From Macrolepiota albuminosa (lineage: Eukaryota > Basidiomycota > Agaricomycetes > Agaricales > Agaricaceae), in the NCBI GenBank assembly GCA_027475525.1, contig JAMWFC010000005.1, forward strand, positions 930,001 through 994,000: a stretch of DNA of 64,000 nucleotides. Direction: 5' to 3'. The position numbers and the translations under genes are program-made. The notes beneath the pieces were generated by a model. It ran no database searches. It had not been told where the DNA came from and worked only from the letters and a program-made list of their open reading frames with translations. Shown in pieces: positions 5,201-41,681 of the stretch (position 1 is the stretch's first letter; every line of letters begins with the position of its first letter).

Positions 5201-5643
5201 TGTCACGACCCCTCCCCTCCGGACCCACACCGGGACACCTCCGGAACACCCTCCGGGACCCTCCCTCCGACCCCACAGGACACGCCCCGCCATCAGCCGC
5301 CACCAGCCCCGATCAACGATCGGATCACGCGACTCGTTCCAGCCATCGCGCATCACACATCACGGCTCCATCCGCGCCAATTGATCGCGTGCCCCACATG
5401 CGCGATCCCGGTATGCAGCCCCTGCCGCTACTCAATGACCCCCGGAACCCATCCCAGACATCCTGGAACCCCGAGACCCGGCCCCGTAGTACTTATAGCA
5501 TAGTTCCCTGTTGTATTCGCTAGTCTTGATATTACATACACTGTTACTTTGCATTACTTGGATTGTTGCGTGCCCTCTATTTGACTGGTACGCATTGACT
5601 GGCACGCTTGACTGGCACGCTTGGATAATCGCGTGCTCTAAGA

Positions 5644-5797
5644 CTGGTACGCACTTTGCGACTTTAATTTACTAACTTGGTCTCGTCTTAGAACCTCCGG
5701 TTCACGACTCGACCCCCACCCTGGTACGCACTTTGCGACTTTAATTTACTAACTTGGTCTCGTCTTAGAACCTCCGGTTCACGACTCGACCCCCACC
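5644..5797. repeat. 77-bp adjacent duplication 1 (probable assembly artefact)
   Basis: Copies 5644-5720 and 5721-5797 are identical. The 3' LTR of the same element has this segment once. Confidence 0.9.
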
Positions 5798-5889
5798 TGA
5801 ACTCCCCCGTTACCCACCACCCAAAACCCCCGGACTAAGTCCCCTCTCCCGGGATTTCTCTGTCCACGTCTTTAACCCCGGAGTCCTAG

Positions 5890-10974: not shown

Positions 10975-12044
10975 GAAGTAGTTCCCCCGGAGTATCACGA
11001 GTTCGCTGACATATTCTTCGAAGGAGATGCCAAAGAGATTCCCCCTCACCGCCCCTATGATCACACCATCGACCTCGAGGAAGGAACCACCCCCCCTTTC
11101 GGTAAGGTCTACAACATGTCGGAGGTCGAACTCCGGGCCCTCAAGGACTACCTCGACGAAATGCTCGGTAAGGGATTCATCCGACCCTCTGCCTCTGCCG
11201 CCAGAGCCCCGGTTCTATTCGCCAAGAAGAAGGACGGCTCGCTCCGGCTCTGCGTCGACTACCGGGGACTCAATAAGATCACCAAGAAGAACCGCTACCC
11301 GCTCCCGCTCATTGGCGATCTGGTCGATCGACTCCGCAGTGCCAAGGTTTACACGAAAATCGACCTCCGCTCCGGTTACAACAACGTCCGCATCGCCCCG
11401 GGACACGAGTGGAAAACCACGTTCCGCACGCGGTATGGTCTGTTTGAGTACCTTGTGATGCCTTTCAGAATGACTAACTCCCCTGCCACGTTCCAATACT
11501 TCATGAACGACATCTTCCACGACATGAGCGACGTCTTCGTGATCGTCTACCTGGACGACATCCTCATTTATTCCGACTCACCGGAGGATCACCAGAAGCA
11601 TGTCTGGCAAGTCCTCGAACGCCTCCGGGAGCACAACCTCCACGCCAAGCCCAAGAAGTGTTCATTCCATACGGAAGAGGTTGAGTATCTTGGCGTCATC
11701 GTATCTCTGAACAGCGTTCGCATGGACCCCCACAAGGTTGAGGCCATCGTCAACTGGCCGCAGCCCTGGAACGTCAAGAAAGTACAATCTTTCCTGGGTT
11801 TTGCTAACTTCTACCGGAGGCCATCGTCAACTGGCCGCAGCCCTGGAACGTCAAGAAAGTACAATCTTTCCTGGGTTTTGCTAACTTCTACCGGAGGTTC
11901 ATAGATAACTACTCTGGTATCACGAAACCCCTCAACCGGCTCACGCGCAAGGACGTCGCCTGGAACTGGGACAGTAAGTGCCAGAGTGTCTTTAACCTGC
12001 TCAAGGAGGCTTTCACGACCGCCCCCGTACTCCGGCACTACGAC
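10975..12044 (+). pseudogene. Element B reverse transcriptase
   Basis: All core RT motifs are visible: [20 protein letters not shown] (about 11212-11272), the primer grip/template region, and the catalytic YLDDILIYS (about 11548-11575). It would copy element RNA into DNA. Pol continues in the same frame as the protease after a TGA at 10972-10974. A 77-bp duplication (11740-11893) shifts frame in the thumb; skipping one copy joins [11 protein letters not shown] to [12 protein letters not shown]. The frame is cut at 12044-12048 by element C and resumes at 23892. Confidence 0.9.
11740..11893. repeat. 77-bp adjacent duplication 6 (probable assembly artefact)
   Basis: Identical copies. Removing one restores the RT frame of element B. 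Confidence 0.9.
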
Positions 12045-12048
12045 CCAA
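12045..12048. repeat. Probable 4-bp target duplication of element C, left
   Basis: CCAA here and CCGA at 23892-23895. Reading ...GAC CCG ACC CTC... across the site restores the RT-RNase H frame, which supports a 4-bp duplication with one G-to-A change. Confidence 0.6.
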
Positions 12049-12994
12049 TGATAGGACCCTATACAGGTTAGGCGCATCAACGGCAGGCTCGGCACCGGCT
12101 CCGGAAACCTTGCCGCACTCGTTCCGAACTTAGCGCACGCGTTCTACCTATTTTAAGCCACTTCTGACGGCCGCGCACGGCAAGAAGCAGATCCAATCAG
12201 TGATAGCGCCGACGGCAGCAGGAATGACAACTGACAGATGGCATCAGTCACTGATGACAGCGCTTAGCGAGAAGCTTGATGATCTATCAAAAACTGACGG
12301 ACAGCTTGGCGTTTGACCTTGGCGTCTGACACCGCTTACCGTCTCGATTTGGCGCCCAACGTCGCTTAGGTGTTCTGACAGACAGAAGGGTGATGGATTG
12401 ATGGTTTAGCACCGCGATCTGCCGCCTGGTGGCGCCAAGGGTCCTCAAAGGACGGTAGGGATCGGAAACCGTTGGAGCAGCCCCTTTGAAATTTTCCAGT
12501 TTACCGCACTCTGGCGTCATTAGCCACTGGCGACGGCAAACTCATTGTAGTATAAAAGTACTTACCGACTTGTACATAGAGGAGAACAATAGACCACAGT
12601 TTCCCCGCTTACTTCAGTCTCCCTTACGCTCAAGAGCTCATTTACGCTACGGTCGGCAACGTCAAAACTCATCGGCAGTTGCAGACGTTCGCCAACACTC
12701 GACATACTCGCGCCTTGCAACTACGGCAGGCATTATCGACGCTTAGACTTCGCTAAGCATATCGTGCTCTTGCCGTTCACATTGCCGTGTTCACTTACCG
12801 CATTTTCCTTAGGCGCTTTACCTTAGCGCTTGACACCTGCCGACCCCGTTACCGACTTTCCTCATTTTCATAGGCGCGTTCTCTGGGACCTGCCCGGGAC
12901 TCCTCATATTACTTTTAGCGCGCCCAACGCAAGCTCTTGGTCCGGCAACACTTTTTGTTACATTTGTTGCTGACCAAAACTTTGGGCGTCATCA
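12049..12994 (+). repeat. Element C 5' LTR
   Basis: 946 bp, TGATAGG...GTCATCA, ends being perfect inverted TGAT/ATCA. It matches 22946-23891 base for base as far as I compared. A GTAGTATAAAAGTA stretch (about 12545-12558) is a plausible TATA element. Confidence 0.95.
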
Positions 12995-14203: not shown

Positions 14204-14293
14204 TCCGCTATGACACGTATTGAAACTATGATCACCACCAACCTCACGGCTAACCGACCCGCTAACGTACCCGCACCTGGCCCTTGCCACTTT

Positions 14294-14447
14294 TGTGGGG
14301 AAATCGGCCACACTATGACTCGAGGACGCTGCGCTACCCTCGAGAATTATATTCGGCAAGGAAGAATTCGTGTGGGGAAATCGGCCACACTATGACTCGA
14401 GGACGCTGCGCTACCCTCGAGAATTATATTCGGCAAGGAAGAATTCG
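14294..14447. repeat. 77-bp adjacent duplication 8 (probable assembly artefact)
   Basis: Period 77. Copies 14294-14370 and 14371-14447 overlap the zinc knuckle. Confidence 0.9.
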
Positions 14448-15064
14448 AAGGGCTATCGATGGCAAGATAGTTCTTACCTCTGGCGCCACCATTCCCAACT
14501 ACCCCGACAAGAAGTCCTTCCAGGAGAGAATTGATGAATGGCATAGGCGCAACCCAGGACAAATCGTTACCGGCACGCTATCTGGCAACGCCAACCCCGA
14601 CCCCGAACAGGCGACCCAACAGCAAATGATCCACGAGGTCTTACACTTCGACAGCGTTGGCGACCGCCCTACTTTCTCGCGGGAAGAACGTATCGCCAAG
14701 CTGCAACAGGAGTTGGATTCGCTGAAGAACCAGGTCTTTGATGGGGTTGAAGTTAAGCAGCCCAAACAACCTCTTAAAGGATACAAGCCGATGCCTCCCG
14801 CTAGCAAATTACCGACGCCTGCTCCTGCCGCACCGCCTGCTACTACCCCTGCTCCTGCTCCAGAACCCTCGTCGTCCGCTACCGCTCCCGAACCACCTTT
14901 GCCGCCTTTACATCCCTATTCTGGGATTCCCGACCGTTATCACGCTCCCGCACAACGAAACTTTGCCGCTCCCGAGAAACGTCCTGAGGGTGGCTACCGA
15001 CCTACAGCGCCAATTTTCGACATCGAAAAATCAAACCACGTTTTTAGCCGCATCATGAAAACCG

Positions 15065-15218
15065 CCGTCACCTTGTCAGTTGAAGAACTTTGCAGTATTG
15101 CTCCCGACGTTCGCAATCAGGTCAAGACAGCAGTTACTCCTCCGTCACCTTGTCAGTTGAAGAACTTTGCAGTATTGCTCCCGACGTTCGCAATCAGGTC
15201 AAGACAGCAGTTACTCCT
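15065..15218. repeat. 77-bp adjacent duplication 9 (probable assembly artefact)
   Basis: Period 77, between element C gag and protease. Confidence 0.9.
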
Positions 15219-15265
15219 CGACGACCTTGGCGACAGCCGTTGCCGAGGTTGATGAACTCGACGAT

Positions 15266-16023: not shown

Positions 16024-16578
16024 GACGGTGCCAACGTTCCCTAGGGACAACGAAAAGGCGCCCTCGCTAAGCCCCGGAGTTTACCGACCAACACGCCAAC
16101 GAACGACCCCACAGGTGTTTTCACAGACCATCGAGGAGGTGATTGGCGACGATCACGGAGATGTGGCGCTAACGCTGGAATATGACCATTCAACTGGTCT
16201 TGTAAATGTTATGTCTACTGCTTTTCTTGCCGAAGACGTTTTAACTACTTTACCCGCTACCGACGCAGAGATTTCCCAGAAAAATCAAAACATTACCGAC
16301 TCCTCTCTTGCCTACTTGTACCTTACCGCTTCCGAGTCTTTTCAAAATATTGCGTCTACCGATACTTATCTCACTACTCTTCCTGGAGCCTCGTCTCCTG
16401 CCGTTCTTGGACTTGCCGCTCCTCAGGCTACAGTTCCCCTTTCCACCTCTGTATATAACCAAGCTAACGCTCCCAAAAGGAAAGGGGTACAAGTCAAAAA
16501 GAAATATAAGCCAGTTGCGCTTAAAACAAAACCCATCGCTACGCACTCTCCCGAGACTTTCAGAATCGAGCGCCAGAT

Positions 16579-16732
16579 CATTGGCGACCCTCTTGCCGAC
16601 ATACCGACCTTATCACCGAATCCGCCACCCTTTCAGCCCACAGGACGTTTTACCACATTGGCGACCCTCTTGCCGACATACCGACCTTATCACCGAATCC
16701 GCCACCCTTTCAGCCCACAGGACGTTTTACCA
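16579..16732. repeat. 77-bp adjacent duplication 13 (probable assembly artefact)
   Basis: Period 77, in the protease-RT linker. Confidence 0.9.
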
Positions 16733-17132
16733 TGGAGTGCCAGCAGCAGTTCGCCAAGGAGCACGACACAGGATTTTTGACCAAGATGAGTTGAACGTCC
16801 TTACCGATCTCGTCGCTAAGCAAGACAAAGCCTTTGCTTGGGAGGACTCAGAACGCGGCAGTCTACGTACAGATTTCTTCCCGCCTGTCGTCATCCCGAC
16901 TATCCCTCATGTGCCGTGGACTGAGCACAACCGACCGCTACCGCCTGGAATCGAAGCCGAGGTCTGCCAAATTATTAGGACCAAGATACAGGCTGGCATC
17001 TACGAGCCCTCAAACAGTTCTTACCGCTCCCGTTGGTTCTGTGTCCTCAAAAAGAACGGCAATCTACGCATAGTTCACAGTCTTGAGCCGCTGAATAGAG
17101 TTACCATACGACACTCTGGCGTACCGCCTTTC

Positions 17133-17286
17133 CCTGATCACGTTGCCGAGTCCTTTGCCGGGCGCATTTGTGGCGCCACCCTTGACCTCTATGTTGGCTA
17201 CGACGAACGCCTGATCACGTTGCCGAGTCCTTTGCCGGGCGCATTTGTGGCGCCACCCTTGACCTCTATGTTGGCTACGACGAACG
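17133..17286. repeat. 77-bp adjacent duplication 14 (probable assembly artefact)
   Basis: Period 77, inside the element C RT. Confidence 0.9.
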
Positions 17287-18296
17287 CTGATACACCCTCT
17301 TCCCGGGATCTCACTACTTTTCAAACTCCGTTTGGCGCCTTGCGCCTAGTCACCTTACCGATGGGCTGGACAAACTCAGTCCCCATATTCCATGACGACA
17401 TCACTTTCATCCTCCAACCCGAGATACCGCATAACGTCCTTAGCTTCATCGACGACGTTGGCGTCAAAGGCCCCAAAGACTGGCGACTCGTAAACGGCTT
17501 ACCGGCGACCCATCCCGACAACTCCAATATTCGCTTAGCGCTATGGGACTTTTTCCAGCTGCTCAATCGAGTTCTCCAACGTATGAAGTATAGCGGTGGT
17601 ACGTTTAGCGGTCACAAACTCCTCCTTTGCGCGCCAAGGTTCAAAATACTTGGTCACATCTGCACTCCCGACGGTCGCGTTCCCGACAAGTCTCGCTTAG
17701 CACTCTTGGAGCGCTGGGGTCCTTGCCGCGACTTATCTGAAGTTCGCGCCTTTCTTGGTACTGTTGGCGTTCTTAGAATATTCGTCAAGAACTTTGCCCA
17801 TCGCGCACATACCCTTAACCGACTCACCCGCGCTAACGAGCCCTTCGAATTTGGGCCAGACCAGGTCACTGCCCAACGAGATTTAGTAAAAGCCCTACAA
17901 GACGCCAAACCCTTAGTTCCAATCGACTATAGCTCTGCCGACCCAGTTATCTTGGTGGTGGATACCTCGTACATTGCCGTTGGCTACTTCTTGTGCCAGT
18001 GCCTTAGCAACAATCGGAAACAGCGACGCTACAACCGCTTTGGGTCTATCACGCTAAACGACAGAGAGTCTCGCTACAGCCAGCCTAAGCTAGAACTCTA
18101 TGGGCTCTTCAAAGCCTTCCGGTCGCTAAAGATGTATTTGATTGGCGTGCGGAATCTGATTGTTGAAGTCGACGCTAGGTACATCAAAGGCATGCTGCAG
18201 AATCCCGATATCCAGCCATCCGCTAGCATGAATCGGTGGGTAGTCGCTATCCTCATGTTTCACTTTGAGCTGGTACACGTCAAGAGTTCTTTCCAC

Positions 18297-18450
18297 GGAC
18301 CAGATGGACTCTCTAGGCGACCACGGCAGCCTGGCGACCCGGCAGTGGACCCACAGGCTGATAGCGATTTCGAGGACCAGATGGACTCTCTAGGCGACCA
18401 CGGCAGCCTGGCGACCCGGCAGTGGACCCACAGGCTGATAGCGATTTCGA
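18297..18450. repeat. 77-bp adjacent duplication 15 (probable assembly artefact)
   Basis: Period 77, after the element C RNase H. Confidence 0.9.
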
Positions 18451-20092
18451 GGATTGGATCGACCGACTACATGGTTTCGTGCACCTCATACAACAGCCTA
18501 TCCCCTTACTACGACGGCAACAGCCTACCAGCATCCTGTTACATCCCATCGTCCCTTACCGCCCCGAGACCTTTAGCGCACCTCTCACGTTCTATACGGC
18601 AAGCATCCTTAAACAAGACTTGCCGCCAATAAAAGTCGTACAGGAACCCCAGTCGCTAAGAGAAGACAGCAGAAACCTGACCTACGATGCCGTTCCCCGA
18701 TCCGCCAAGGCAAAGGCGGAAGACAGTCGCTTGTTACTCGTTGAACAATGGCTACAAGACCTTAAGCGACCCCCAGACCTTACCGACGAACAATACGCGA
18801 CCTTTATCCGTTATGCCACCCGCTTCTTCTTTACCGACAACCGACTTTGGCGACGAAATCGAGATGGCGCCCACAAGCTGATCATCAAGCCAGAAGGTCG
18901 CTTACGAGTCTTGCGCGCCATGCATGACGAGCTAGGCCATAGAGGTCTGTACGCTACCCGAGCTTCTCTGTTAGAACGATTCTGGTGGCCACACGCTAGT
19001 GCCGACGTCGCTTGGTACATTAGGACTTGCCACCTCTGCCAGATTCAACAGACACGCCAAGTGCTCATACCGCCAACCGTTGCCACGCCAGCTCCCCTCT
19101 TCAGCAAAATCTACGTCGACACCATGCACATGCCCAAATCTGGTCGCTACAAGTACATCATTCAAGGTCGTTGCTCGCTAATCCACTGGCCTGAATTTCG
19201 AATGCTCCAAAGAGAAAATACCGACGCGGTCGCCAAGTGGCTATTTGAGGACGTCATCTGCCGTTGGGGAGCGCTAAGAGAAATCGTTACGGATAACGGT
19301 GCGCCCATTATCAAAGCGCTAACCTATCTCGCCAAGAAGTACAACATTCACCACATTCGAGTATCTGGCTACAACAAGCGCGCCAATGGCCTGGTAGAGA
19401 GACCACACTTTGACGTCCGGCAAGCGCTCTTCAAGGCGGTCGATGGCGACGAGGCTCGTTGGAGTGAAGCGACGTATTCAGTATTTTGGTCGGAAAGAGT
19501 TACTATTCGTAAGCGCATGGGTTGCTCTCCCTACTACGCGGCTACTGGCACCCATCCTTTACTCCCTGCCGACATTATAGAAGCGACCTATCTTCAGCCA
19601 GCACCCAATAGTATCTTAGCGACTACCGACCTTATCGCCAGACGAGCCATTGATCTCCAACGAAGGAAAGAAGATTTAGAGCGACTCCACGAGGTAGTTT
19701 TTAGCGCCCGTCGCCAAGCAGCCCTACGATTCGAAACCGAGCATAGCGCTACCATCAAAGATTACAACTTCCCGAGAGGAGCGCTAGTGCTTTTGCGCAA
19801 CTCCAAAATCGAGACCTCATACAATAAGAAAATGCGCCCGCGCTATCTAGGACCCTTGGTAGTTATCTCTCGTAACCGTGGAGGCGCTTACGTGCTCTGT
19901 GAATTAGATGGTTCAGTACTACATCGACCTGTTGCCGCTTTTCGCCTACTGCCATACCTCGCTAGAGAACAAATCGACTTGCCGCTGAAAGCGCTAGATA
20001 TTGACACCGCCAAGCTACGAGAACTTGAAGAAACCGAATTATTGGACGATGATGACTTGCCGACTTTAGTTGAAGAAGAAGAAATTGACTAG
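18422..20092 (+). CDS. Element C integrase (C-terminal part of Pol)
   Basis: An uninterrupted frame of more than 500 codons carries the HHCC zinc-binding module (HDELGHRGLYATRASLLERF...CHLC, about 18927-19040). The DDE core has YVDTMHM (about 19111), VTDNGAP (about 19286) and GLVERP (about 19388). It would join element cDNA to host DNA. The tail (19830-20092) has the LGPLVVI strand of the GPY/F module and then an acidic end; no chromodomain is seen, unlike element B. It is part of the Pol polyprotein, not a free-standing gene. The first visible codons derive from the 77-bp duplicate. Confidence 0.9.
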   Translation: MDPQADSDFEDWIDRLHGFVHLIQQPIPLLRRQQPTSILLHPIVPYRPETFSAPLTFYTASILKQDLPPIKVVQEPQSLREDSRNLTYDAVPRSAKAKAEDSRLLLVEQWLQDLKRPPDLTDEQYATFIRYATRFFFTDNRLWRRNRDGAHKLIIKPEGRLRVLRAMHDELGHRGLYATRASLLERFWWPHASADVAWYIRTCHLCQIQQTRQVLIPPTVATPAPLFSKIYVDTMHMPKSGRYKYIIQGRCSLIHWPEFRMLQRENTDAVAKWLFEDVICRWGALREIVTDNGAPIIKALTYLAKKYNIHHIRVSGYNKRANGLVERPHFDVRQALFKAVDGDEARWSEATYSVFWSERVTIRKRMGCSPYYAATGTHPLLPADIIEATYLQPAPNSILATTDLIARRAIDLQRRKEDLERLHEVVFSARRQAALRFETEHSATIKDYNFPRGALVLLRNSKIETSYNKKMRPRYLGPLVVISRNRGGAYVLCELDGSVLHRPVAAFRLLPYLAREQIDLPLKALDIDTAKLRELEETELLDDDDLPTLVEEEEID

Positions 20093-20518: not shown

Positions 20519-22776
20519 TCAGTCTTCGTTCTCGGGAAGCGACATGGAGTCGTCGAGCGGCAAGGAGTCGTTGAAAGGCAGGAGGTCGCCAACCTGAACA
20601 TGGTTGAGGGCTTGCCATTCTAGCGCCTCGTTGCAGTCGGCTTGGTATTCCTCCAGAGTCTCCATGCTGCGGGTTAGATTGGCGTACCGGAGTCGCGAGG
20701 CCATAATTTGTTGACGAGCGCATTCGCGCTCACGACCCAGTACCGCACGCATACTTGCCGCACGGGCTCCCAGCTGCTCGATAACTTGAGGAGGGTACAG
20801 TGCCACCACTGGATAAACCAAGTCCTCCCCCAGCCACTCGTACGAGTCGCCAGTGACTCTGGGCTGAGGCTGGGGGGTCCACGACAAGGAACCACTCGAG
20901 CTCGTCCAGAGCTGCGTCGCCAAGTCGCCTTCACTTACCCAGGGGGCGGCAGGCTCCACCGTCGGTAACTCCTGGGACTCGCCAGGGCCGTCCCGCAAAG
21001 TCTCCTCCAACTCCCCCTCAGCATCCTCATTGCCGCCCTCTTCCTCCTCGCGGCTTGGCGACCCTTCCCTTTTCTCCTTCTCCCCTGCTATCTCCTCTGC
21101 GCCAGCGGGCTCTCCCATCACGACATTACCTTCATCGCCCGGGGCGCCAGCAGTCGAAACGTCGGCAGGCACGTTCTCAGGCAAGACGAGAGGGGATAGT
21201 AGGCGGCTGGGGCCAGCCTCACCGCTAACGGGAGGGAGGCGACTGGCGGCAAGGGCCTCTCCAAGCTCCCTCATTTCCGTGTCCTCAGCAGTTGGAGAGG
21301 AGGGGGGCGACTCGATGCGTACGCGCTTGGCCTTACCCTTGCCCTTGCTTGGGGAGGAGGCCTTGCGCTTTTCTTGGCGCTCGCCAGCGCCGCGCTTGCC
21401 GACCGATTCCGATTCATCTCCTTGACGCGTCGGCAGCGCCAAGGAGGACTTGCTGATCTTCGCCGCTCTCCCAGCGGCAACCTCGCTACGTTCCCTCTCC
21501 ACAAACTCCCTCGCCCGCTTGACCAAAACCGCCCGGGAAAAGGTCTTCTCGACAAAGACATCAGGCGCGCCGCCACGTTCACGACTCTTGGCGCCGTCGA
21601 TCGTACAGGCACGCTTGAGAGTGCCGCAGCGGTAACATGGTTGGGCGCCAGTGGGGAACCAGCAACTTTCGGGGTCGTTGTCGGCCCAGCATTTGTCACA
21701 CTACCCATGCTTGAGAACAAAAGTCATACGAAAAAGGCTAAGACAACTTACCGCTCCATGAGAATCTTTGAACTCCTGGCGCGTCGCCAGGGAAGCTGTG
21801 CGCTTGTTCTTCATTTCCGGCAGCTCCACTCCTCCCTCAATACCCTCGTCCATTACGACGTCATCCCGGCGCGGCAAGAGCAAACCCTTCAACTCCTTGT
21901 CGTCGAAAGTTGTCTGGCTAGGGAGCTGGGAGAGAGTCAGCAGAGAGTCGGCAAAGAATTACTACGGCATACCTCGTATTGAGGGCCCTTCCCCTTGCGA
22001 GACTAGCAAAAGTCACAGTCGGTAAGGAGAGACGCCAACACCAGGAAACTCACCTTTTTCTTCAAAGCCTTGCCAGGCTTTGAAGGTGAACCCTGTGTGC
22101 CTGCCGGCAGTGTGGGGCTCTGAACACTGCCGGCGCGAGACCCCTTGCTAGAACCCTCGGCAACAGACTCCTTCTTTTGCTCCTTGGCGAGCTCGGCCCT
22201 TGCCACCGCCAAGGAGTGTGCGGCAGCGGCAGCGGCAGCCTCCTCCTGCTCTTGCTCGATCTGCAATCGAGCAAGGGGCTCTAGTACCTCTTGCTTGCTA
22301 CGAGGGGATAGTTCAGTCCATAGCTAAGGAAGGAAAGGTCAGGAGATACTCACTCGGTTGCCGACGCGCTTACGGTCATCGGCAACGCGCCAGAAAGAAT
22401 GTCCTCCAACTCATCTTTGATGGTGGGGACGGGGGGAGGCGCCTAGGTAGCAATTAGCTAAGCGACACGCCAGGCGACAAAAGCAACTTACGAAACGGGA
22501 GAAAGGCGCCAACCACTCAGCGCCACGATTGTCGACATACCGGGCGCGGCACCACTCCCGCACCTCGATTTCGCGATCCCACCCTACGCCAAGGACTCTC
22601 ACCTCATACCATCACTCCAGTAACTTCATCACGCCAACCACAAGATTTTGAGACGCCTCGGCGCCAACGCCCTCGATATGGCGGATGAAACGGTTGGCCT
22701 TAGCAATGTAAGCGTACGCGGCTTCTTGAGCAGCCTGAGATGGGACGGGGGGCGGAGTTGGAATACGGAAAGACAT
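20519..22776 (-). CDS. Antisense spliced gene of element C: six-cysteine (Zn2Cys6-like) protein
   Basis: Six exons fit on the - strand with GT-AG junctions that keep phase: 22776-22492, 22442-22354, 22297-22054, 22002-21973, 21925-21752, 21700-20519 (about 667 codons). The last exon opens exactly on the first cysteine of CX2CX8CX8CX2CX6C (ending CYRCGTLKRAC), close to a fungal Zn2Cys6 DNA-binding cluster. Then come basic KRKA/KGKGKAKR patches, a Ser/Pro/Glu-rich disordered region and a helical, coiled-coil-like C-terminus. Exon 3 has an Ala/Glu helix. One in-frame TGA (22612-22614) in exon 1 is either a C-to-T nonsense change or an unrecognised intron. Element B carries a counterpart at 26419-28121. 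Function unknown; regulator of the element or of silencing is inference. Confidence 0.7.
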
Positions 22777-22930
22777 ATTTTTTTATTTGAGCGCCAGGAA
22801 AAAGATGGGAGAAGAAACGAAGTCCAAACTCACGCGCCAGGACTATAAACAAAATCTCAAGAACGCACGGACCACCTGTCACAAAAGCGGTAACGGTAGC
22901 CTTATTTGGTGACTGAGGACAGTCAATTTT

Positions 22931-22945
22931 TCAGTTGGGGGGAGA
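22931..22945 (+). other. Element C polypurine tract
   Basis: CAGTTGGGGGGAGA directly abuts the 3' LTR start, as expected for plus-strand priming. Confidence 0.7.
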
Positions 22946-23891
22946 TGATAGGACCCTATACAGGTTAGGCGCATCAACGGCAGGCTCGGCACCGGCTCCG
23001 GAAACCTTGCCGCACTCGTTCCGAACTTAGCGCACGCGTTCTACCTATTTTAAGCCACTTCTGACGGCCGCGCACGGCAAGAAGCAGATCCAATCAGTGA
23101 TAGCGCCGACGGCAGCAGGAATGACAACTGACAGATGGCATCAGTCACTGATGACAGCGCTTAGCGAGAAGCTTGATGATCTATCAAAAACTGACGGACA
23201 GCTTGGCGTTTGACCTTGGCGTCTGACACCGCTTACCGTCTCGATTTGGCGCCCAACGTCGCTTAGGTGTTCTGACAGACAGAAGGGTGATGGATTGATG
23301 GTTTAGCACCGCGATCTGCCGCCTGGTGGCGCCAAGGGTCCTCAAAGGACGGTAGGGATCGGAAACCGTTGGAGCAGCCCCTTTGAAATTTTCCAGTTTA
23401 CCGCACTCTGGCGTCATTAGCCACTGGCGACGGCAAACTCATTGTAGTATAAAAGTACTTACCGACTTGTACATAGAGGAGAACAATAGACCACAGTTTC
23501 CCCGCTTACTTCAGTCTCCCTTACGCTCAAGAGCTCATTTACGCTACGGTCGGCAACGTCAAAACTCATCGGCAGTTGCAGACGTTCGCCAACACTCGAC
23601 ATACTCGCGCCTTGCAACTACGGCAGGCATTATCGACGCTTAGACTTCGCTAAGCATATCGTGCTCTTGCCGTTCACATTGCCGTGTTCACTTACCGCAT
23701 TTTCCTTAGGCGCTTTACCTTAGCGCTTGACACCTGCCGACCCCGTTACCGACTTTCCTCATTTTCATAGGCGCGTTCTCTGGGACCTGCCCGGGACTCC
23801 TCATATTACTTTTAGCGCGCCCAACGCAAGCTCTTGGTCCGGCAACACTTTTTGTTACATTTGTTGCTGACCAAAACTTTGGGCGTCATCA
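22946..23891 (+). repeat. Element C 3' LTR
   Basis: 946 bp copy of the 5' LTR, followed by CCGA and the resumed element B frame. Confidence 0.95.
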
Positions 23892-24298
23892 CCGACCCTC
23901 CCGATTATCCTGGAATGCGACGCTTCCGACTATGCCATCGCCGGGATTCTCTCGCAGATGGAACCTGACGGAGGGGAGCCCCGGCCAATTGCCTTCTACA
24001 CCCGGTCTATGATCGACACCGAGCTCAACTACAACATCTACGACAAGGAGCTCCTCGCCATCATCGAAGCCTTCAAGCAATGGCGAGCCTACCTCGAAGG
24101 AGCCCGGCACCGGATTCAGATCTACTTGGATCACAACAACCTGCAGTACTTCACCACAACCAAGCAGCTTAGTCAACGGCAGGCCCGATGGTCTGAGGTC
24201 CTCTCAGAATACGACTTCACGATTCAGTACCGCCTGGGACGACTCGGAGCTAAACCCAATGCCCTCATCCGTCGTCCGGACGTCTACCCCAAGAAGTC

Positions 24299-24452
24299 AT
24301 TTGAGGCGGAACGCAATGCGTTCAATCATCGCGTGGTGATCCCTCCCGAACATTTGAATGCCGTACTGATCTTAAATTTGAGGCGGAACGCAATGCGTTC
24401 AATCATCGCGTGGTGATCCCTCCCGAACATTTGAATGCCGTACTGATCTTAA
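24299..24452. repeat. 77-bp adjacent duplication 16 (probable assembly artefact)
   Basis: Period 77, after the element B RNase H. Confidence 0.9.
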
Positions 24453-24561
24453 ACAATGAAGGGACCCTGAGTCAGATCCGCCGCGCCCCCCGAGACAAGT
24501 ACTTCACTGACCACGACCCCCGCAACCCTCCCGACGGAACTGACCAGGACCCCGCCTTCTC

Positions 24562-24715
24562 TTTGTCCCCCGACAAAAAACTCCTCCTCCGGGACGGCCA
24601 CATCTACGTCCCGGATCACGCCCGACTCCGCTACGACGTTTGTCCCCCGACAAAAAACTCCTCCTCCGGGACGGCCACATCTACGTCCCGGATCACGCCC
24701 GACTCCGCTACGACG
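24562..24715. repeat. 77-bp adjacent duplication 17 (probable assembly artefact)
   Basis: Period 77. Taking one copy joins LRYDV to LRQHHDYKLRGHPG in the integrase zinc module. Confidence 0.9.
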
Positions 24716-25507
24716 TCCTCCGTCAACACCATGATTACAAGCTCCGGGGACACCCTGGGATACATAAGACTCTCCAGCTGATCTCTCGGACTTACTTTTG
24801 GCCAGGGTTGAAGAAGGACGTGACCCGCTACATTCGATCATGTGAACCCTGCCTCCAGGCCAAGGTCCCCCGACACTGACCATACGGACTCCTGAAACCC
24901 CTGCCAGTCGGACGACGCCCCTGGTCCTCCATATCTCTGGACCACATCGTCAAACTCCCGGAATCTGAAGAGTTCGATGCCATTCTCGTCGTTGTGTGTA
25001 GGCTAACCAAACAGGGCATCTTCCTACCCTGCCACACCACGGACACCGCCCCGGACTTTGCCCGGCTGTTCCTCGAACACGTCTTTGCCAAACATGGACT
25101 CCCGGACGACATCGTCTCCGACCGTGGCCCTCTCTTCATGTCCAAGTTTTGGACTTCCCTGTGTAAGGCACTTGAAGTAAAGACTAACCTCTCTACCGCC
25201 TACCACCCCAAAACTGACGGCCAAACCGAAAGGGTCAACCAGTCTCTCGAGCAGTACCTCCGACTGTACGTCAACTACTTGCAGGACGACTGGCGCGCCG
25301 AGCTCCCCCTGGCCGAGTTCACCTACAACAACACGCCGCACTCTGCCACCGGGGTGTCCCCTTTCTTTGCCAACAAGGGATACCACCCTCGACTGACACT
25401 CTTGCTCTGGGACATCCCGTCGCACGCCGCCCACGAGGTCGCCCGGGATCTCCAATCCCTTCACGAGTTTCTCCAGGAAGAGATCGACACCGCGAACCGG
25501 GCCTATA

Positions 25508-25661
25508 TGAAACACGCCGACCGGAAACGGGAAGACACCCCTGACTGGACCCCCAGGACAAAGGTATGGTTAGATCGACGACACTGAAACACGCCGACCG
25601 GAAACGGGAAGACACCCCTGACTGGACCCCCAGGACAAAGGTATGGTTAGATCGACGACAC
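25508..25661. repeat. 77-bp adjacent duplication 18 (probable assembly artefact)
   Basis: Period 77, in the element B integrase C-terminus. Confidence 0.9.
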
Positions 25662-25722
25662 CTCCGCACCCGCCGGCCCTCCCCAAAACTCGATCACAAG
25701 CGTCTGGGCCCGTTCAAAATAT

Positions 25723-25876
25723 TGAAGAAGGTCTCATCTCACGCCTACAAGATCGAGCTCCCCCCGGGACTAAAAGGTCTGCACCCGGTATTCCACGTCT
25801 GAAGAAGGTCTCATCTCACGCCTACAAGATCGAGCTCCCCCCGGGACTAAAAGGTCTGCACCCGGTATTCCACGTT
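25723..25876. repeat. 77-bp adjacent duplication 19 (probable assembly artefact)
   Basis: Period 77, just before the chromodomain. Confidence 0.9.
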
Positions 25877-26418
25877 CGCCTCCTGGAACGACACCCCCCA
25901 GATCCCTTCCCCGAACGACGCCCTGAGCCCCCTCCCCCAGTCGAGGTCGAGGACGAGTACCACTACGAAGTTGAAGACATCCTCGACTCCTGGAACATTC
26001 GTGGACGACCCCACTTCTTCGTACGGTGGAAGGGGTACGGCCCGGAAGACAACACTTGGGAACCGCGCGGAAACCTCGAAGGCGCCCTCGACAAACTCCG
26101 GGACTTCCAACAATGGCACCCGAGAAACGACCTTCCTGGGCGCAGGACTCACAGACGGCAGTAGTGGGCGTAACCCCCGCCTCTGGGCTCAGCAGGGATT
26201 CAACTCCCACGTATATTTTCTACCTTCCCCTTCTGGATTTTACTCTCCTTTAGTACTTTTTTCACAGTAACGCCCCAGATTCTGGGCAAGGTACTCTTTC
26301 TCATTTCCTTGCCACTTTACTTACACCATTTTGAGTACGACGACCAAGTATATACATTTTGCTACAAGTACAATATTTCACAAGCCCGTAGACAAGCCAA
26401 GACAAGAACCAACAAAAA

Positions 26419-28121
26419 CTACCGACCCTCGCTCCCTCCCTCCCTGGGCCAGCCTCGAAACCCCTTCCCCATCCCCTCCGGACCGTGCTCCCGCAATACT
26501 TCCTCGGCCAACTGTTTCCAGGACGGGAGCGACTCACCCTCGTCCAGAACTCTCTCAAACCAGGAGCCGGGGGCGGGCACGTTCCTCCGCCGGTATGCCG
26601 ACACCACCTGCCCCAGCAAGTCGAGGCCCCATTCTACCCCGGGAGTTGTCACCTCAGGGCGCTGCCCCTCCTGCAGCGCCGCGAGTGCCGCGGCCGCCCC
26701 GTCCAAGAGTAAGCGGTGCTCTCGGGCCCAGCCTGGAAATGTCAGTGGAGAATCGAACCTGAGGATAGGGGGACTCACTTAACGAGGCCATACGGGCCAC
26801 CACCACATCCTGGCGTAGGGCCTCCGCCAACCCCTCACCCCCCGGAAGTCCCACTCTCTGCCCGAGCCTTGCCCTCAGAGCCTCTAGCTCGGCCTCCGCT
26901 TCCCTCCGGACGACCCTAGCCTCCTCCAGGTTCCGGACCATCGCCTCCCGACCCTCCTCCAGATCCCACCCGGCCGCCACCTCCTCCCTCGCCCCCTCCC
27001 CGTGGCCCCCCTGCTTTGGCTCCTGCAGGGCCCCGACTTCGCCAGCCTGGAGTCCCCCGGACAGGGGGGAGAATGTTGCTGGGGACAGGCACGGGGATGA
27101 AACCAGAGATGGGGTCTCCAGGAGCAAGCATGCCCTCTTGGAGGGCCCTGGAGAAGGGCTAGGCGACGCCCGCCGTTTTCCCTTGTCTGGGCACCCCTCA
27201 GGTTGCTCCCGCCCTGGGGCACCAGACCGGGTCACCCGGCGCGTGATCAAGACCACGGGCCGGCCCCGGCCACCCACCCGGACAAACCCCCGCCCTCCCG
27301 CCCCACCCCCAGGGGCCTCCCCCAGCGCCTCCTCCTGAACCGCCGCCGCCCCCGCGACCCAATCCCTCTCCTCCACTCCCATCCTCCAGGTGATCCCTCC
27401 CAACAGCCAACCCTGCTCCTGCGAAACGCAATATGCCCTCCAAAGGGCCGAAACGGAACATCGCTCGTGATTGAGGCGACAGGCCTCGCACACGGAAGTG
27501 TTGCGCCGGGACGAGGCGGACGGGACCTCGAACGAGCACATCACTGAACGACGTGTGCAGTGGAGACACTAGGACGGATTAGCTGCAGGACCAGAGGTAT
27601 GAAGTCACTTACCGGCCCGTTGCTGATACACCAGGCATGGAGAGGCAGGCCCCGGGGCCTCACCAGCGCCCCCTCGAAGGCCTCCTGCGTCGTGCTGGCC
27701 CACTCAACGCGCTGGGCCTCCGGGACCTCGGAAATGGCCCCCACCGCCATCCTGGAGCAACGGAAACGAGGGGCGACCAGTCTAGGGCGAGGAGGGGAAG
27801 GGGGACGGGGGGGATGCACGGTCATCTGCGCAAAAGTGGGCACGGAACGACTGGCACCTGAAGGACCCCCGGGACCTGCACCAGGGACAGGCTCTGGGAG
27901 CCGGCTGGGACCCGCCTCCGGGGCAGTAATGATGTGTTGTTCTGAAAAGGGAAGGTCAGTAATGACAAACGGGCGGCGCGGGAAGCACTCACGTTGTTGC
28001 GCGAGAGCCGCTATGCGCTCCCAGTCCAGGCACGCTCGGTACCGCGTGTCCCGGGCCTCCCAGGCCATGAGGGGCGCGACCTCGTTAGTTTGGGGGGGCG
28101 TCGGGGAATGGGTTGGCGTAC
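26419..28121 (-). CDS. Antisense spliced gene of element B: six-cysteine (Zn2Cys6-like) protein, 5' end lost in gap
   Basis: Phase-consistent exons on the - strand are 28121-27993 (partial), 27941-27613, 27568-26779 and 26732-26419, with GTGAGT/GTAAGT donors. Exon 27568 begins on the first cysteine of CX2CX6CX15CX2CX6C (CLHC...CEACRLNHERC), the canonical spacing of half-clusters in Zn2Cys6 proteins. A Pro/Gly/Arg-rich region, a strong Glu/Arg/Leu coiled coil (about 26990-26800) and a helical C-terminal domain follow. The intron directly before the first cysteine has the same position and phase as in element C's antisense gene. The start codon lies in or beyond the N gap. Function unknown. Confidence 0.65.
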
Positions 28122-28221
28122 NNNNNNNNNNNNNNNNNNNNNNNNNNNNNNNNNNNNNNNNNNNNNNNNNNNNNNNNNNNNNNNNNNNNNNNNNNNNNNN
28201 NNNNNNNNNNNNNNNNNNNNN
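28122..28221. other. Assembly gap (100 N)
   Basis: Exactly 100 Ns, the conventional length for a gap of unknown size. It interrupts the 5' part of element B's antisense gene. Confidence 1.
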
Positions 28222-28590: not shown

Positions 28591-29122
28591 CCTCTCCATC
28601 CGCGCCAATTGATCGCATGCCCCACACGTGCGATCCCAGTATGCAGCCCCTGCCGCTACTCAATGACCCCCGGAACCCATCCCAGACATCCTGGAACCCC
28701 GAGACCCGGCCCCGTAGTACTTATAGCATAGCTCCCTGTTGTATTCGGTAGTCTTGATATTACATACACTGTTACTTGCTTTACTTGGATTGTTGCGTGC
28801 CCTCTATTTGACTGGTACGCATTGACTGGCACGCTTGGATATTCGCGTGCTCTAAGACTGGTACGCACTTTGCGACTTTAATTTACTAACTTGGTCTTGT
28901 CTTAGAACCTCCGGTTCACGACTCGACCCCCACCCGAACTCCCCCATTACCCACCACCCAAAACCCCCGGACAAAGTCCCCTCTCCCGGGATTTCCCTGT
29001 CCATGTCTTGAACCCCGGAGTCCTAGCCCCGGAGTTCCAGACACCCGAGTATCCGTGGGTCAAGTCCGCATTGTAAGGGCGACTGCTTTCCCGGAAAGCC
29101 CCCGACTCAGCGGAACCTGACA
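28591..29122 (+). repeat. Element B 3' LTR, missing about 165 bp at its start
   Basis: It matches 5366-6591 of the 5' LTR (without TRIM and 77-bp duplicate) and ends CCTGACA before GGTGA. The first 165 bp present in both other LTR copies are absent. Confidence 0.9.
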
Positions 29123-29127
29123 GGTGA
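29123..29127. repeat. Target-site duplication of element B, right copy
   Basis: GGTGA, equal to 5196-5200. Confidence 0.9.
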
Positions 29128-33380: not shown

Positions 33381-34284
33381 TGTAGATGTGGGTTGGGCTA
33401 CCTGATGGATCGGTAACATAGTCGAAAGAGTCGGGAGTAGAGGGTAAGGGTAGAAGTCGAAGTAGATAAGAAAAATGTGATGGTGAGACGTAGCCATGAA
33501 GTAGCGTTCATCGTAATGCAGTGAAGTTCATGGCCAAAGTTGAACAAACTCCAGTAAGACGAGAGAAACTTAGTAACAATGGACACAAGAAAGAGAGAGT
33601 AACAGAAGCTCAGCAAGTCTGGAATGAAGAGGTCAATGGAACAAGATGCCCAAGAAGTTTAGAAGCCGAGAAGCAAAACGGAAGCAGAGATGCCAGAACA
33701 ATCGATCAATCTGATAACAGAACTGGGACAGACAAGAATGAAGCTGAGGCCGAGAAGCGAGATCACCGAGAAGCTGAGTACGCTGCCAAAGATAGCAAGC
33801 ACACGACATTTGACGTTGGATCAAACATCAATGAAGCCAGAAGTATGCTGAGCAAGACAATATTCAAGACCAGACCAGACGACAACAAAACACAATAACA
33901 ATACACATGAAACAAGCTAGCTCAGGACCGGAGAATGTGGGGTATAGAAACCTGCTATTCATATATTTTTTCTTCCCTTTTATACCTATTGTACATGTTC
34001 TAGGAACCAACAATCTACTCCTAAGTCTGTCCACATTGTTGATTCTCCTCCAAATTTTGTTTTTGACCATTGGTTGGTCTCATAATATTAGAACCTTAAT
34101 TTCTTATGCTTTTCCTGTTCCTCTAACTATCCAATTTGTCCACCTCAACTTTCCATCATAGACCTGTACATGCCCCTCCTGATTACCTACTCATATGCCC
34201 TCTGTTACCAACATCAATTCTTCAGCCTGCATCAAACCCCCATTCCAATCTACGTCTCTCAGTAGACCTCATCTCCCTACCACA
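33381..34284 (-). repeat. Element D 3' LTR (left in window)
   Basis: 904 bp. On the + strand it starts TGTAGATGTGGGTTGGGC and ends CTACCACA. It is a direct repeat of 41682-42580 with scattered substitutions. Confidence 0.9.
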
Positions 34285-34600
34285 GACTGCCATCATTTTA
34301 AACAATGATTTCATTGTCAAGGGCGCCCATTCCCTCCATAGGCAGCCATTCAATATTCAAATAAGCCAGCAGCGTCACGATCTCTCCATGCAAATCCCCA
34401 ATTGTAATCTCCTCATCTCCACGCACCTCTACCTTTGACATACTCCAATTCTGAAAGCTTTTTGACTCATCCTGATTAGTACTCAATCCCTTCACCAACT
34501 GAACAGTCTTGATGGTCTGAAACTCCTTCCTAAAGTAGAAAATCTTCATCCTATTTGCCACTACTGATTCCTTTCTGACCGTCCTGTCAAGTTCACACAG

Positions 34601-35857
34601 TTAATAAGTAGAATCTTGCAGCCTGCAGTCCACGATGAATAGTCCTGACCATCTGAGAGCAAATTTGTGACCCTTCTGACCCTCTAGCCAGGTTTTGTGT
34701 AGCAACACCCAGGTTCCATCCTCAAATTCCCCACTTGACAGTAGTCGACTAAACTTGTTGTTGAATGCAGCCACCACTTTCTCCCTCGCCTTCTTCTGAT
34801 GCTCCAAAGCGACAACCAACTTTTCATCCCTCCTAACCAATTGTTTCATTCTAATAGCTAGCAAGTCTTCCATCGACCAAACCTGATCCAAATATAAACC
34901 TTCCCACATTATGTCAGCGATGTCAAAGGCAAAGAACAGGTTACAACCGTATAACAAAAAGTAAGGTGTATATCCAGTCGTCCACAAAGTGGTAGTTCTC
35001 ATTGCCAGCAGACCGGCTTCCACAAACAGCAGCCATTTTTTTGAATCTTGTCTGCACACCTTTATGATTGAGTTGCACAACGTTTTATGAGCTTGTTCGG
35101 CGATTCCGTTCCCTTCAGGATGATATGGCGATGAAACTATAACCGTTATCCTGTACTGTCAATAAATGTACTCAGCTGCCCCAAGAAATTCTTTCTCTCC
35201 ATCGGTGATAAACGCAGGGATATGTCCAAAACGGCAGATGATTTCTTCGTACATGAACTTCCCCCAGGCAATGAAATCAGCTCTCTTTGAAGCTCTAGCT
35301 TCCAGCCACCCTATGGCTGGTTCCATCCCTTGTAAAAAATACTTCTTTCCTCCATGTCCCTGTCCCATGTGAACCATATCCAAACAGAAGTATTGTAACA
35401 TGGCTGCACTCCAAGTTGGTGATAGCGCTACCTTTGGTCTTGTTCTTGATTGGAGTTGACATATGTTACAAGAATGCATAAAATACGCAACATTGTTGTA
35501 CAAGTTTGGCCAATAAAATCTGTCAGACAGTGTTTTGTACATTGCATCTTGGCCTCTGTGTCCTGCCTCGTTGTGAGCTTCCGCAACCAATTCCACCTGT
35601 CTCTCCTTACTCTCCACCACCAGCCTCAGAAGCTTACCCTTCACCAAATTAAGCCACAGCTTTTTCTCATACAGAAAATATCTTTTAGACATTTTGATGA
35701 AGGCTTTTTGTTCTTTTTCCGTCCTGCACCTCCTTGGCATAGCCAACGTTGACAAATACTCCTTGATGTCTGCCCATATACCTTCTGGTTTCTCATTCTT
35801 CATCCCAAATTCATGCTTTGCACACAAAGGTTCCTCCATTCCCCCTTCATACCCCAA
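34601..35857 (-). pseudogene. Element D integrase
   Basis: Read from 35857 down, it has an HHCC module (HNEAGHRGQDAMYKTLSDRF...CNICQ, about 35580-35455), then CLDMVHM (about 35375), FITDGEKEF (about 35195) and, after a frame break near 35158, EGNGIAEQAHK (about 35115-35085) for the DDE triad. The C-terminal part runs to a stop at 34601 (KFALRWSGLFIV). One stop or frameshift at 35159 separates the second Asp from the Glu. Confidence 0.85.
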
Positions 35858-35869
35858 TCTCCACGTGTA

Positions 35870-36943
35870 CTAAGTTATGCCGAATAAAACCACCTCTTGT
35901 CCCCACCAATACTCCAATTCCACTTCTTGTTCCCACCTCTTCTTACAAAAGTCTTGACCTAAGAAAACAAAAGAATTGGCAGCGTGGGATAGAGTTCCAT
36001 TAACCAGAGGTACTGTAAGCACTTCTCTGCATGATACGTTGAAACTCTCATCGTTCTCAAGATTTTCTTCTTCCTTTGAAACCCCAAATAAGGCCATGTA
36101 AAAAGTGGTTGCACTTGTCACAAAAGTCGTGTACGGAGTCCTCAGAGTCCTCCTAATATGCTCCATCATTCCCTTCATTGTTTCTGTGTTCCACCCAAAA
36201 GCTGATGATCCTCTCACCAACCATGATAACTCTCCAGTCGCAGAACTTCTCATCAATGTGCTTTTACTCACCAATTTATCCAAAAAATTCTCTGAATCTG
36301 AGTCCTCTGAATTGTCATCTGCCTTCCTTTGTCTCAAAAGCCCATCCAGTCCTTGATGAGATTGAGCGAGCACATGATTCAATAAAAAGTCGAAGAGAGA
36401 AATATAGAGAATCCAGCAAGTCATCGGGGCGTTCGGAAGGTCTGGGTTTTGTATCATCTTGACCAGAAACTTTGCATCCACATCCACTCTAAAGAATACC
36501 CCCCACACTCGGTGTTGCAGCACTTTGAGTGCTTGAAAAAGGCTGTACAATTCACATTTCGGCTGCAAATATCTTGATTCTGTGTTGTTAAACGTGCAAG
36601 AACCAAACAATGCTGGCTTCTTTTTGTGCCCCCTGTATTGCTGTAAAATCCATCCTGCCCCATTTTTGCACAAGTCTACTTCCAACACAATCAATCCATT
36701 TACATCTCCGTCTCTAAAGTTGCTTAGCTTTGAATGTCTTCTCACGTCCTCGTATTCAATAACAATAAAGACTGGTGCCAATGTTATTAGGCTCTTGATA
36801 GAGTCCATCGCCTGCAACTCCTCGTCACCAAAATAAAATTCTCTATCCAATCTCCTCATCAGCATTGTCAAGGGTTTTGCCACCAACAAAAAGTTCTTGA
36901 TCCACTTTCATCCCACCTCTGCAGTCCCTAGGAATGATCTGAC
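35870..36943 (-). pseudogene. Element D RT thumb, RNase H and linker
   Basis: The frame continues the RT after the solo LTR (VRSFLGTAEVG at about 36940-36910). It runs through LVAKPLTMLMRRL, an RNase H-like region (SRYLQPKCELYSLFQAL near 36570) and the conserved tail HQGLDGLLRQR (about 36350), to a stop at 35870. Similarity to element C's RNase H is evident in motif order and spacing. A stop at about 36907 interrupts the join. Confidence 0.8.
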
Positions 36944-36948
36944 GTCAT

Positions 36949-37690
36949 TGTCATGACCCCTCCCCTCCAGATCCACCCTGGGACACCCCCGGAACACCAT
37001 CTGGGACCCTCCCTCCAACCCCACAGGACACGCCCTGCCATCACGACTACCGACACCGCCATCATGCGCATCAAGAACCGCCATCAGCTGCCACCAGGCC
37101 TGATCAATGATCAGATCACGTGACTCACTTCTGGCCATCATGCATTACGCATTACAGCTCCCTCCATGCCAATTGATCGTGCACCCCACATGCGCGATCC
37201 AAGTATACAGTCCCTGCCCGCTACTCAATGACTCCCGGAACCCATCCCAGACACCCCGGAACCCTGAGACCCGGTCCCATAGTACTTATAGCGTAGTTCC
37301 CCGTTGTATTCGCTAGTCTTGATATTAACTTGGATAACTTAAATTGTTGCGTGCCCTTTGCTTGATTGGTATGCCCTGACTGGCACGCTTTGACTGGCAC
37401 ACTTGAATAACCACGTGCTCCAAAGTTTGGTACGTACTTCGCGACTTGTAATTTGCTAACCCGGTCTTGTCTTAGAACCTCCGGATTACGACTCAACCCC
37501 CACCCAACCCCCAGCTACCCACAACCCAAAACCCCCAGACCAAGTCCCCTCTTCCGGGATTACCCCTGTCCACGTCTTGAACCCCAGAGTCCTAGCCCCA
37601 GAGTTCCAGACACCTGAGTATCCATAGATCAAGTCCGCATTGTAAGGGCGTTGCTTTCCCAGAAAGCCCCCAACTCAGCGGAACCTGACA
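36949..37690 (+). mobile_element. Solo LTR of element B family inside element D pol
   Basis: 742 bp, TGTCATGACCCC...CCTGACA, clearly related to the B LTRs over its length. GTCAT flanks both ends (36944-36948 and 37691-37695). Removing the LTR and one GTCAT rejoins D's frame as ...EDVHD-VRSFLGT..., which proves insertion followed by LTR-LTR recombination. It carries neither the TRIM nor the 77-bp duplicate. Confidence 0.95.
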
Positions 37691-38400
37691 GTCATGAACA
37701 TCTTCTGGCACAGGCCACTTCTCCACCCTTGTCACCAATCCACATTCCAAATGCCACCTATCCATCAACACCACCGTTCCCACAATGTTAAGCATTGGTG
37801 TAGCCAAAATCAACTTCTTTTCCGAAGCTGTAATCCCCACCTCTATAAATCAAGCGAAGAATTGATCCAGTATTGTTGCGTATTCATAAATCGTCTGCCT
37901 GATTCCTGGAGCTACCTCTTCTCCCCCATACCACGACTTTGGCCCTATTATACCCACATCATCTACAAACCCATTACCGTTTGGTGGCCGTGCTTCCTTC
38001 TCCTCCTTAATAGTATGGTCCACACACTTTTGAAATTCTGGAAAGGAATTTGTTGCCCCTTGCGGCAACATTGTGCCTCTCCTAGCTTCCAGTATACATC
38101 CAAACGTCATCAATGGCCTTGACACCTTCACTAACTTCCTGCCATTGTATCCCACAAATAAGTTGCATAACCCATAAACTCCCCTTCCCACAAACCCCTC
38201 AGCAAAGTCGTCAACCCTGGGTGGCAAGGTGGTGTCCCTTACTGTAACCTTATTTAATTCCTGAACGTCCTGTACTATCCTGATACCGTTCTTCTTTGTG
38301 ACAGCAAAAATCCTTGACCGATACAATGCAGTCGAAGGCTCAAATTTTCCCACCTTCTCCTGCTCCAACAATGCCTCCCTTACTTGTTCCTCTATTGCTT
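37691..38400 (-). pseudogene. Element D reverse transcriptase
   Basis: Read from about 38400 down: SRIFAVTKKNGIRIVQDVQEL, then the palm with catalytic FVDDVGIIGP (about 37970-37940), and the thumb to the solo LTR junction at 37695. The F-x-D-D motif matches element C rather than the YLDD of elements A and B. The frame has a stop at about 37850 and the N-terminal side (38400-39080) is open only in pieces, so the enzyme is not complete. Confidence 0.85.
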
Positions 38401-40168: not shown

Positions 40169-40222
40169 TTTTTTTGCCGAGTCAGGAATGCTTGGCTTTG
40201 CTGGAATTTTTATCGTCAGACC

Positions 40223-41610: not shown

Positions 41611-41662
41611 CTCACAACTTTTTTCACCTCATTAATTCGATTTCAACATGCCAATATAATCC

Positions 41663-41678
41663 CCTGTCTCGGTCACCA
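41663..41678 (-). other. Element D primer-binding site
   Basis: On the - strand TGGTGACCGAGACAGG starts 3 bp inside the 5' LTR end, beginning with the TGG expected opposite a tRNA CCA end. Confidence 0.65.
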
Positions 41679-41681
41679 ATC

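Follow-up and report, generated by a model that had tools for sequence, protein, structure and literature searches.

What does a long terminal repeat (LTR) retrotransposon gain from a spliced gene that is read against its own gag-pol? The question is raised by a window of 64,000 nucleotides (the whole stretch of DNA analysed here, positions 930,001-994,000 of contig JAMWFC010000005.1) from the 100.1 Mb genome of the basidiomycete Macrolepiota albuminosa, in which two nested elements, referred to as B and C, each carry such a gene; all coordinates below are relative to this window. Plants and the Boty element of Botrytis are known to have antisense accessory genes at the same position (PMC7264820). 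In both elements of M. albuminosa, a multi-exon gene lies between the integrase and the 3′ LTR, convergent with gag-pol, and it is kept in the copies examined. We consider it moderately probable that these are retrotransposon accessory genes, encoding a nuclear zinc-cluster protein which would act, most likely in trans, on the expression or silencing of its own element family.

Antisense genes, their copies and their conservation

The antisense gene of C runs on the minus strand from 22776 to 20519 and comprises six exons separated by GT-AG introns, whereas that of B (28121-26419, same strand) comprises four exons and lacks its start, lost in a 100-N gap (28122-28221) and seen in other copies as MSRTPTHSPTPP. 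Both exon counts agree with an earlier, sequence-only reading of the window, whose claim of real, spliced antisense genes in B and C is borne out by conserved GT-AG introns, selection and genome-wide copies. With the main exon as query, the genome yielded at least 126 matches for C (at least 105 places once split rows are merged) and at least 130 for B; the copy analyses refer to the best 30 loci for each family, picked via the antisense gene. The matched exon is free of stop codons in 29/30 C and 22/30 B loci. On the strand opposite to the gene and behind it, 30/30 C loci have a C-type integrase and 30/30 B loci the chromodomain end, which confirms for both pol lineages the claimed location between integrase and 3′ LTR; homologues at the same position in other family copies had been set beforehand as one test of that claim. 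On the side away from the integrase, 29/30 C and 28/30 B loci have a matching, correctly oriented LTR no more than 1.5 kb away, the C exception (L029) having an inverted LTR and disrupted 5′ exons. In the reverse direction, a test that covers the C family, at least 57 of 76 C-type integrases are accompanied by a convergent antisense gene (28 by the close version, 24 by a second version and 5 by another match). Same-strand neighbours of gene and integrase were absent from the close-version comparison, the sole one that looked for them; the others considered convergent pairs only. Presence in most copies and conservation like that of other element proteins, two properties of an antisense accessory open reading frame between pol and 3′ LTR (aORF-3R), are thus both observed.

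Splicing signals are conserved as well. The last intron of C (intron 5) shows GT and AG in 30/30 copies and a length of 48-51 in all except one, and introns 1-4 show GT in 28, 29, 22 and 29 of 30 and AG in 29/30 each; the low GT count of intron 3 is taken for an alignment shift, mainly affecting seven rows with AG in that column. Exons 1-5 have a single length in 27, 28, 25, 29 and 29 of 30 copies, respectively, and 6 of the 12 deviating lengths are exactly +77. Four of the five C introns diverge from the window copy by 0.147-0.293, compared with 0.068-0.110 for the exons. In B, intron 2 has GT-AG borders in 26/30 copies under a strict pattern (among the remaining four, L045 and L066 start inside the exon, L063 has a donor outside the pattern and L054 has no recognisable donor), and all copies in which intron 3 could be read (21/21, out of 30) carry a GTGAG donor. 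The in-frame TGA in exon 1 of the window's C copy is absent from 26/26 cleanly aligned copies (26 of 29 others).

Both antisense genes are under purifying selection, strongest at the cysteine cluster of the encoded protein. Among copies selected for divergence and open frames, decayed ones being left out, the pooled ratio of non-synonymous to synonymous substitution rates (dN/dS) is 0.171 for C, falling to 0.029 over the first 45 codons, which include the cysteines (8 copies, 28 pairs), and 0.345 for B, falling to 0.136 at the cysteine cluster (15 copies, 105 pairs). Alignments of 16 and 15 sequences show little or no variation at the six cysteines. The remaining frames give values of 1.1-2.1, save the frame mirroring the wobble positions (0.30 and 0.51), and the antisense frame has the lowest dN/dS of all. 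Long open frames do occur on both strands in the window, as would be expected of chance frames arising from composition or of shadows of the coding sense strand; however, only the antisense and wobble-mirroring frames lie below 1, the antisense one lowest, so that chance is excluded, and this explanation is refuted by the frame-by-frame dN/dS together with codon-position rates, the conserved introns and homologues in another genus.

The same data bear on a role of the antisense RNA itself, which might pair with gag-pol RNA and feed RNA interference or limit copy number, the protein being secondary. Given the convergence of the two genes, a gag-pol RNA ending in the 3′ LTR would span the antisense gene, and double-stranded RNA has been discussed as an option for such genes (PMC7264820). 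Nonetheless, dN/dS values of 0.03-0.17, kept splice sites and fixed cysteines are not what an RNA role would lead one to expect, and we regard it as improbable.

The encoded proteins and their relatives

The sequence-only reading had ascribed one plan to both proteins: a low-complexity N-terminus, six cysteines, a disordered region and a helical end. In B and C alike, the six cysteines are indeed followed by a basic, Ser/Pro-rich disordered part and then by a helix, which in C (residues 304-365) is modelled with a predicted local distance difference test (pLDDT) of 84-98 as means over blocks of ten residues. The N-terminal region that C has in addition, on the other hand, is not of low complexity, and is common to proteins of Termitomyces. 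A structure search of PDB with the C model, the only one used, gave no useful match, and the sequence search of PDB returned chance-level matches or none. Pfam scans of the antisense proteins detected neither a fungal transcription factor domain nor the TRP28 domain (PF04195).

The Zn(II)2Cys6 clusters of fungal regulators are spaced C-x2-C-x6-C-x5-12-C-x2-C-x6-8-C. The spacing in B is C-x2-C-x6-C-x15-C-x2-C-x6-C, and that in C is C-x2-C-x8-C-x8-C-x2-C-x6-C; thus, B resembles the family PF00172 in having six cysteines in two CxxC-x6-C halves, and C has a similar second half, whereas the 15-residue linker of B, the x8 of the first half of C and the position of the cluster in the middle of the protein depart from it. 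Against PF00172, the B cluster of the window scores 17.5 bits (cut-off 21), with 10/12 members matching and a best E-value of 0.0024, and none of nine C members matches. Membership in Zn2Cys6 is therefore not supported, given the score under the cut-off in B, the lack of a match in C and the deviating spacings.

A single family comprising both proteins is likewise not supported, the profile-profile comparison (hhalign) giving probabilities of 2% and 0.2%. The earlier suggestion of a module either ancestral to both lineages or exchanged thus survives as exchange within the C family, and not as a family shared by B and C. The sole link between the two genes is a phase-0 intron immediately 5′ of the first cysteine in both, a position that is suggestive of a common origin, which in that case could be very old.

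A database search with the C protein gave 22 homologues, all of them (22/22) from Termitomyces and recorded as hypothetical proteins; they are joined at the same exon junctions, for instance before LWTELSP and before CDKC. For B, a single homologue was obtained (P0023, on a contig of 1,466 bases), and none with the chosen region as query. In a tree of the C-terminal part, some Termitomyces proteins group with versions from this genome and others fall outside (support 100/99, with a long-branch warning), and the gene versions may accordingly predate the split of the hosts. Introns and a Zn2Cys6-like cluster, that of B lying just below the Pfam Zn_clus cut-off, are also what a captured host gene might look like, carried as passenger cargo of no service to the element. 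We find this very unlikely, as the gene stands beside the element's integrase in the 60 loci read, selection between element-borne copies argues for a use to the element, and every protein retrieved for C came from Termitomyces.

Probable exchange of gene versions and a possible role

Copies of element C differ far more in their antisense gene than in their integrase. The integrase DNA is 92-97% identical to that of the window (35 other copies with coverage) and the leader preceding the gene is 93-100% identical where covered, whereas in divergent copies identity drops to 64-82% over parts of the antisense gene. Over the 28 pairs of 8 C copies, median synonymous divergence is 1.11 (0.28-1.62) for the gene and 0.26 (0.16-0.39) for the integrase; the two closest pairs are alike in both (0.28 and 0.23; 0.32 and 0.29). 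Three copies whose gene is divergent match at 89-93% across 1.2-1.4 kb of exon 1, leader and LTR, while their exons 2-6 drop to about 70-82% in the alignable parts. One of the three has an integrase identical at 99% of protein positions, with an antisense protein identical at 83% over the first 84 residues and 47% over residues 55-393; the version it carries has 107 matches in the genome. The simplest reading is that exons 2-6 of the C gene were swapped between element lineages by recombination. Alternatively, these exons alone could have diverged far faster than the rest, which is less likely given that the differences extend to synonymous sites. The trend in B is similar, with integrases at 91-97% and exons 2-3 down to 69-72%, the LTRs also varying (81-94%).

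A third, more distant version lies near integrases, at 3.8-4.5 kb, in 10 pairs, 10/10 of them convergent, and the 57 rows used, out of 150, contained no integrase for 65 of the 75 third-version genes compared. The integrases near this version fall outside the set of 76 C-type ones and perhaps mark a third pol lineage. In the long spacer between a third-version gene and its integrase, locus L079 contains an open frame of 122 amino acids (1253-1618) without a Pfam match.

Temperate phages trade repressors among themselves. By analogy, and as a tentative and rather doubtful proposal, the antisense gene could be a swappable specificity module, one backbone keeping several old cysteine-cluster regulators that are traded by recombination, so that a new version would escape silencing or cross-regulation aimed at the residents.

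The contrast between gene and integrase also bears on whether the protein is a helper in the element's life cycle and not a transcription regulator, i.e., a nucleic-acid chaperone, a nuclear import factor or an integrase partner for target choice. The gene adjoins the integrase in the 60 copies examined, the protein combines basic stretches with a C-terminal helix, and C, in which no chromodomain was found, could need another targeting partner; but B possesses both chromodomain and antisense gene, so that the gene does not simply stand in for a chromodomain, and a nearly constant integrase beside a varying antisense protein is unlike a fitted pair of partners. Such a helper is possible, though we hold it to be unlikely.

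The regulator acting in trans that we favour would work as follows. Antisense transcription would start near the edge of the 3′ LTR, the leader between LTR and start codon, with a TATA-like TTTATAG, being the probable promoter region, and the spliced messenger RNA would yield a protein directed to the nucleus by the basic stretches beside its Ser/Pro-rich regions. There, a zinc-held cysteine cluster would bind nucleic acid or chromatin, the C-terminal helix would dimerise the protein, and expression or silencing of the own family would be affected in trans. A regulatory role, like the one suggested for the antisense proteins of the plant elements Grande and Retand, is plausible. The antisense direction would furthermore let the element retain its introns, since the RNA that replicates is the gag-pol strand, which presumably cannot be spliced at antisense junctions; this points to a route by which a gene with introns, if placed antisense, could pass through the RNA stage of a retro-element.

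Several observations weigh against this reading and against a simple exchange of versions. The cysteine cluster is modelled with pLDDT block means of 34-44 in both B and C, and the antisense proteins have no Pfam family above cut-off and no convincing solved structure. Among the matches listed, 19 of the 76 C-type integrases have no antisense gene. Intron 2 of C diverges by 0.076, compared with 0.099 for exon 1, and keeps its length in 29/30 copies. The window's C copy is young, with identical LTRs, and yet its exon 1 is interrupted by a stop codon, so that the protein may be dispensable in cis or supplied in trans. The gene divergences between the extremes form a range and not two clean groups, which would require several exchanges or partial ones. 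Finally, L072 combines a leader at 94% with a diverged gene, and L030 and L031 combine LTRs at 74-76% with genes at 84-92%; in the copies read, neither leader nor LTR thus tracks the version of the gene, which disfavours a tight fit between the protein and the LTR of its element.

HBZ is a bZIP protein of an animal retrovirus. As with HBZ of human T-lymphotropic virus (PMC11963269), we would be dealing with an antisense gene for a nuclear regulator within a retro-element, the nuclear role being a prediction in our case. A closer parallel is brtn of Boty in Botrytis cinerea, an extra gene of a fungal LTR element, antisense to gag-pol, between pol and the 3′ LTR (Zhao et al. 2011, as cited in PMC7264820), also mentioned in PMC8365987, PMC4227169 and PMC5987419. 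Boty differs in its ascomycete host, and Boty-like pol carries a chromodomain (PMC4227169), as B does and C does not; compared by description, the accounts available in part do not mention introns, a cysteine cluster or exchange of versions, and our database searches with the antisense proteins gave no match named BRTN. Among the plant antisense open reading frames (Retand, Grande gene23, RIRE2), most Retand elements encode TRP28 (PF04195) and not a cysteine cluster (PMC11963269; PMC7264820); the word 'intron' is absent from the main texts of both papers, although the latter recommends looking for transcripts that are antisense and spliced. The sequence-only reading knew of no description of such a module. 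The architecture, however, was already known, and what appears new, as far as seen, is the basidiomycete setting (a case not found in the literature searched, mostly open-access), the several conserved introns, the strongly selected cysteine cluster and the apparent swapping of versions, with two pol lineages involved and perhaps a third. With more than 100 matches per family and different versions on one backbone, the genome offers natural contrasts of the same pol with different antisense proteins.

Host elements and tandem duplications

Element B occupies about 5.37-29.12 kb and is interrupted by element C (Table 1). As the earlier reading had it, B is a chromovirus with a YLDD motif, its chromodomain matching PF00385 with E 3.9e-12, and C has FIDD, the Pfam scan of its 575-residue integrase frame detecting no chromodomain. 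The integrase core of B (PF00665) scores 28.2 bits, under the cut-off of 32.6.

Table 1. Features of elements B and C and tandem duplications in the window (window-relative coordinates)
Feature	Position	Strand	Basis
5′ LTR of B, recognised part, with 77-bp tandem duplication	5366..5889	+	93.5-95.9% identity to 28594-29026
B reverse transcriptase frame, YLDD at 11548	10975..11904	+	PF00078 E 1.5e-39
5′ LTR of C, nested in B	12048..12994	+	947 bp identical to 22945-23891
C pol frame, FIDD at 17445, RNase H	16245..18632	+	PF17917 E 6.6e-12
C integrase frame	18365..20092	+	PF17921 E 9.5e-16
C exon 6, with the six-cysteine cluster, a disordered middle part containing a basic stretch, and the long C-terminal helix; stop TGA	20519..21700	-	
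C exon 5	21752..21925	-	copy alignment
C exon 4	21973..22002	-	copy alignment
C exon 3, LWTELSP junction common to Termitomyces P0003	22054..22323	-	copy alignment, protein comparison
C exon 2	22374..22442	-	copy alignment
C exon 1, start codon; this copy with TGA at 22614-22612	22492..22776	-	copy alignment
Leader, LTR to start codon of C gene; TATA-like TTTATAG	22777..22944	-	93-100% identical in L009-L038
3′ LTR of C	22945..23891	+	947 bp identical to 5′ LTR
Frame with B RNase H, continuing beyond C insertion	23871..24416	+	PF17917 E 1.9e-35
B integrase core and chromodomain, frames interrupted by 77-bp duplications	24880..26164	+	PF00665 E 2.3e-6; PF00385 E 3.9e-12
B exon 4, stop TAG	26419..26732	-	
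B exon 3: six-cysteine cluster, basic stretch, helix	26779..27568	-	
B exon 2	27613..27941	-	
B exon 1, start lost in N gap	27993..28121	-	
3′ LTR of B	28594..29123	+	LTR comparison
77-bp duplications, first 13 of 25	5644, 7620, 7737, 9635, 11740, 14050, 14294, 15065, 15266, 15588, 15870, 16579, 17133		
77-bp duplications, remaining 12	18297, 24299, 24562, 25508, 25723, 49800, 50175, 52695, 53264, 58856, 62135, 62376		

The window contains 25 perfect or near-perfect tandem duplications of 77 bp, each able to shift a reading frame, and extra lengths of 77 are present in further copies of the C gene too, in exons and introns. They are most likely an assembly artefact of a k-mer size of 77, and the gag-pol frameshifts found here should therefore not be taken for a sign of decay.

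A further element, D, occupies 33381-42580 on the minus strand, with LTRs (33381-34284 and 41682-42580) that are 91.6% alike, and is related to C by DUF4100 and by its integrase (28%). The integrase match of D reaches 34520, and the approximately 236 bp left to the LTR provide no room for an antisense gene, D thus representing a Gypsy lineage naturally without the module. The Pfam domain DUF4100 (PF13352) lies in the gag/protease region of D (39083-41440) and is weak in C (14266-15249), where it remains under the cut-off; this domain, a Pfam family of unassigned function, may belong with gag in the Gypsy elements of fungi.

In exon 3 of the B copies L040-L068, differences from Arg to Trp, Cys, Gln or His appear to be frequent. 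This pattern is expected from CpG decay, and thus suggests that the B family is cytosine-methylated.

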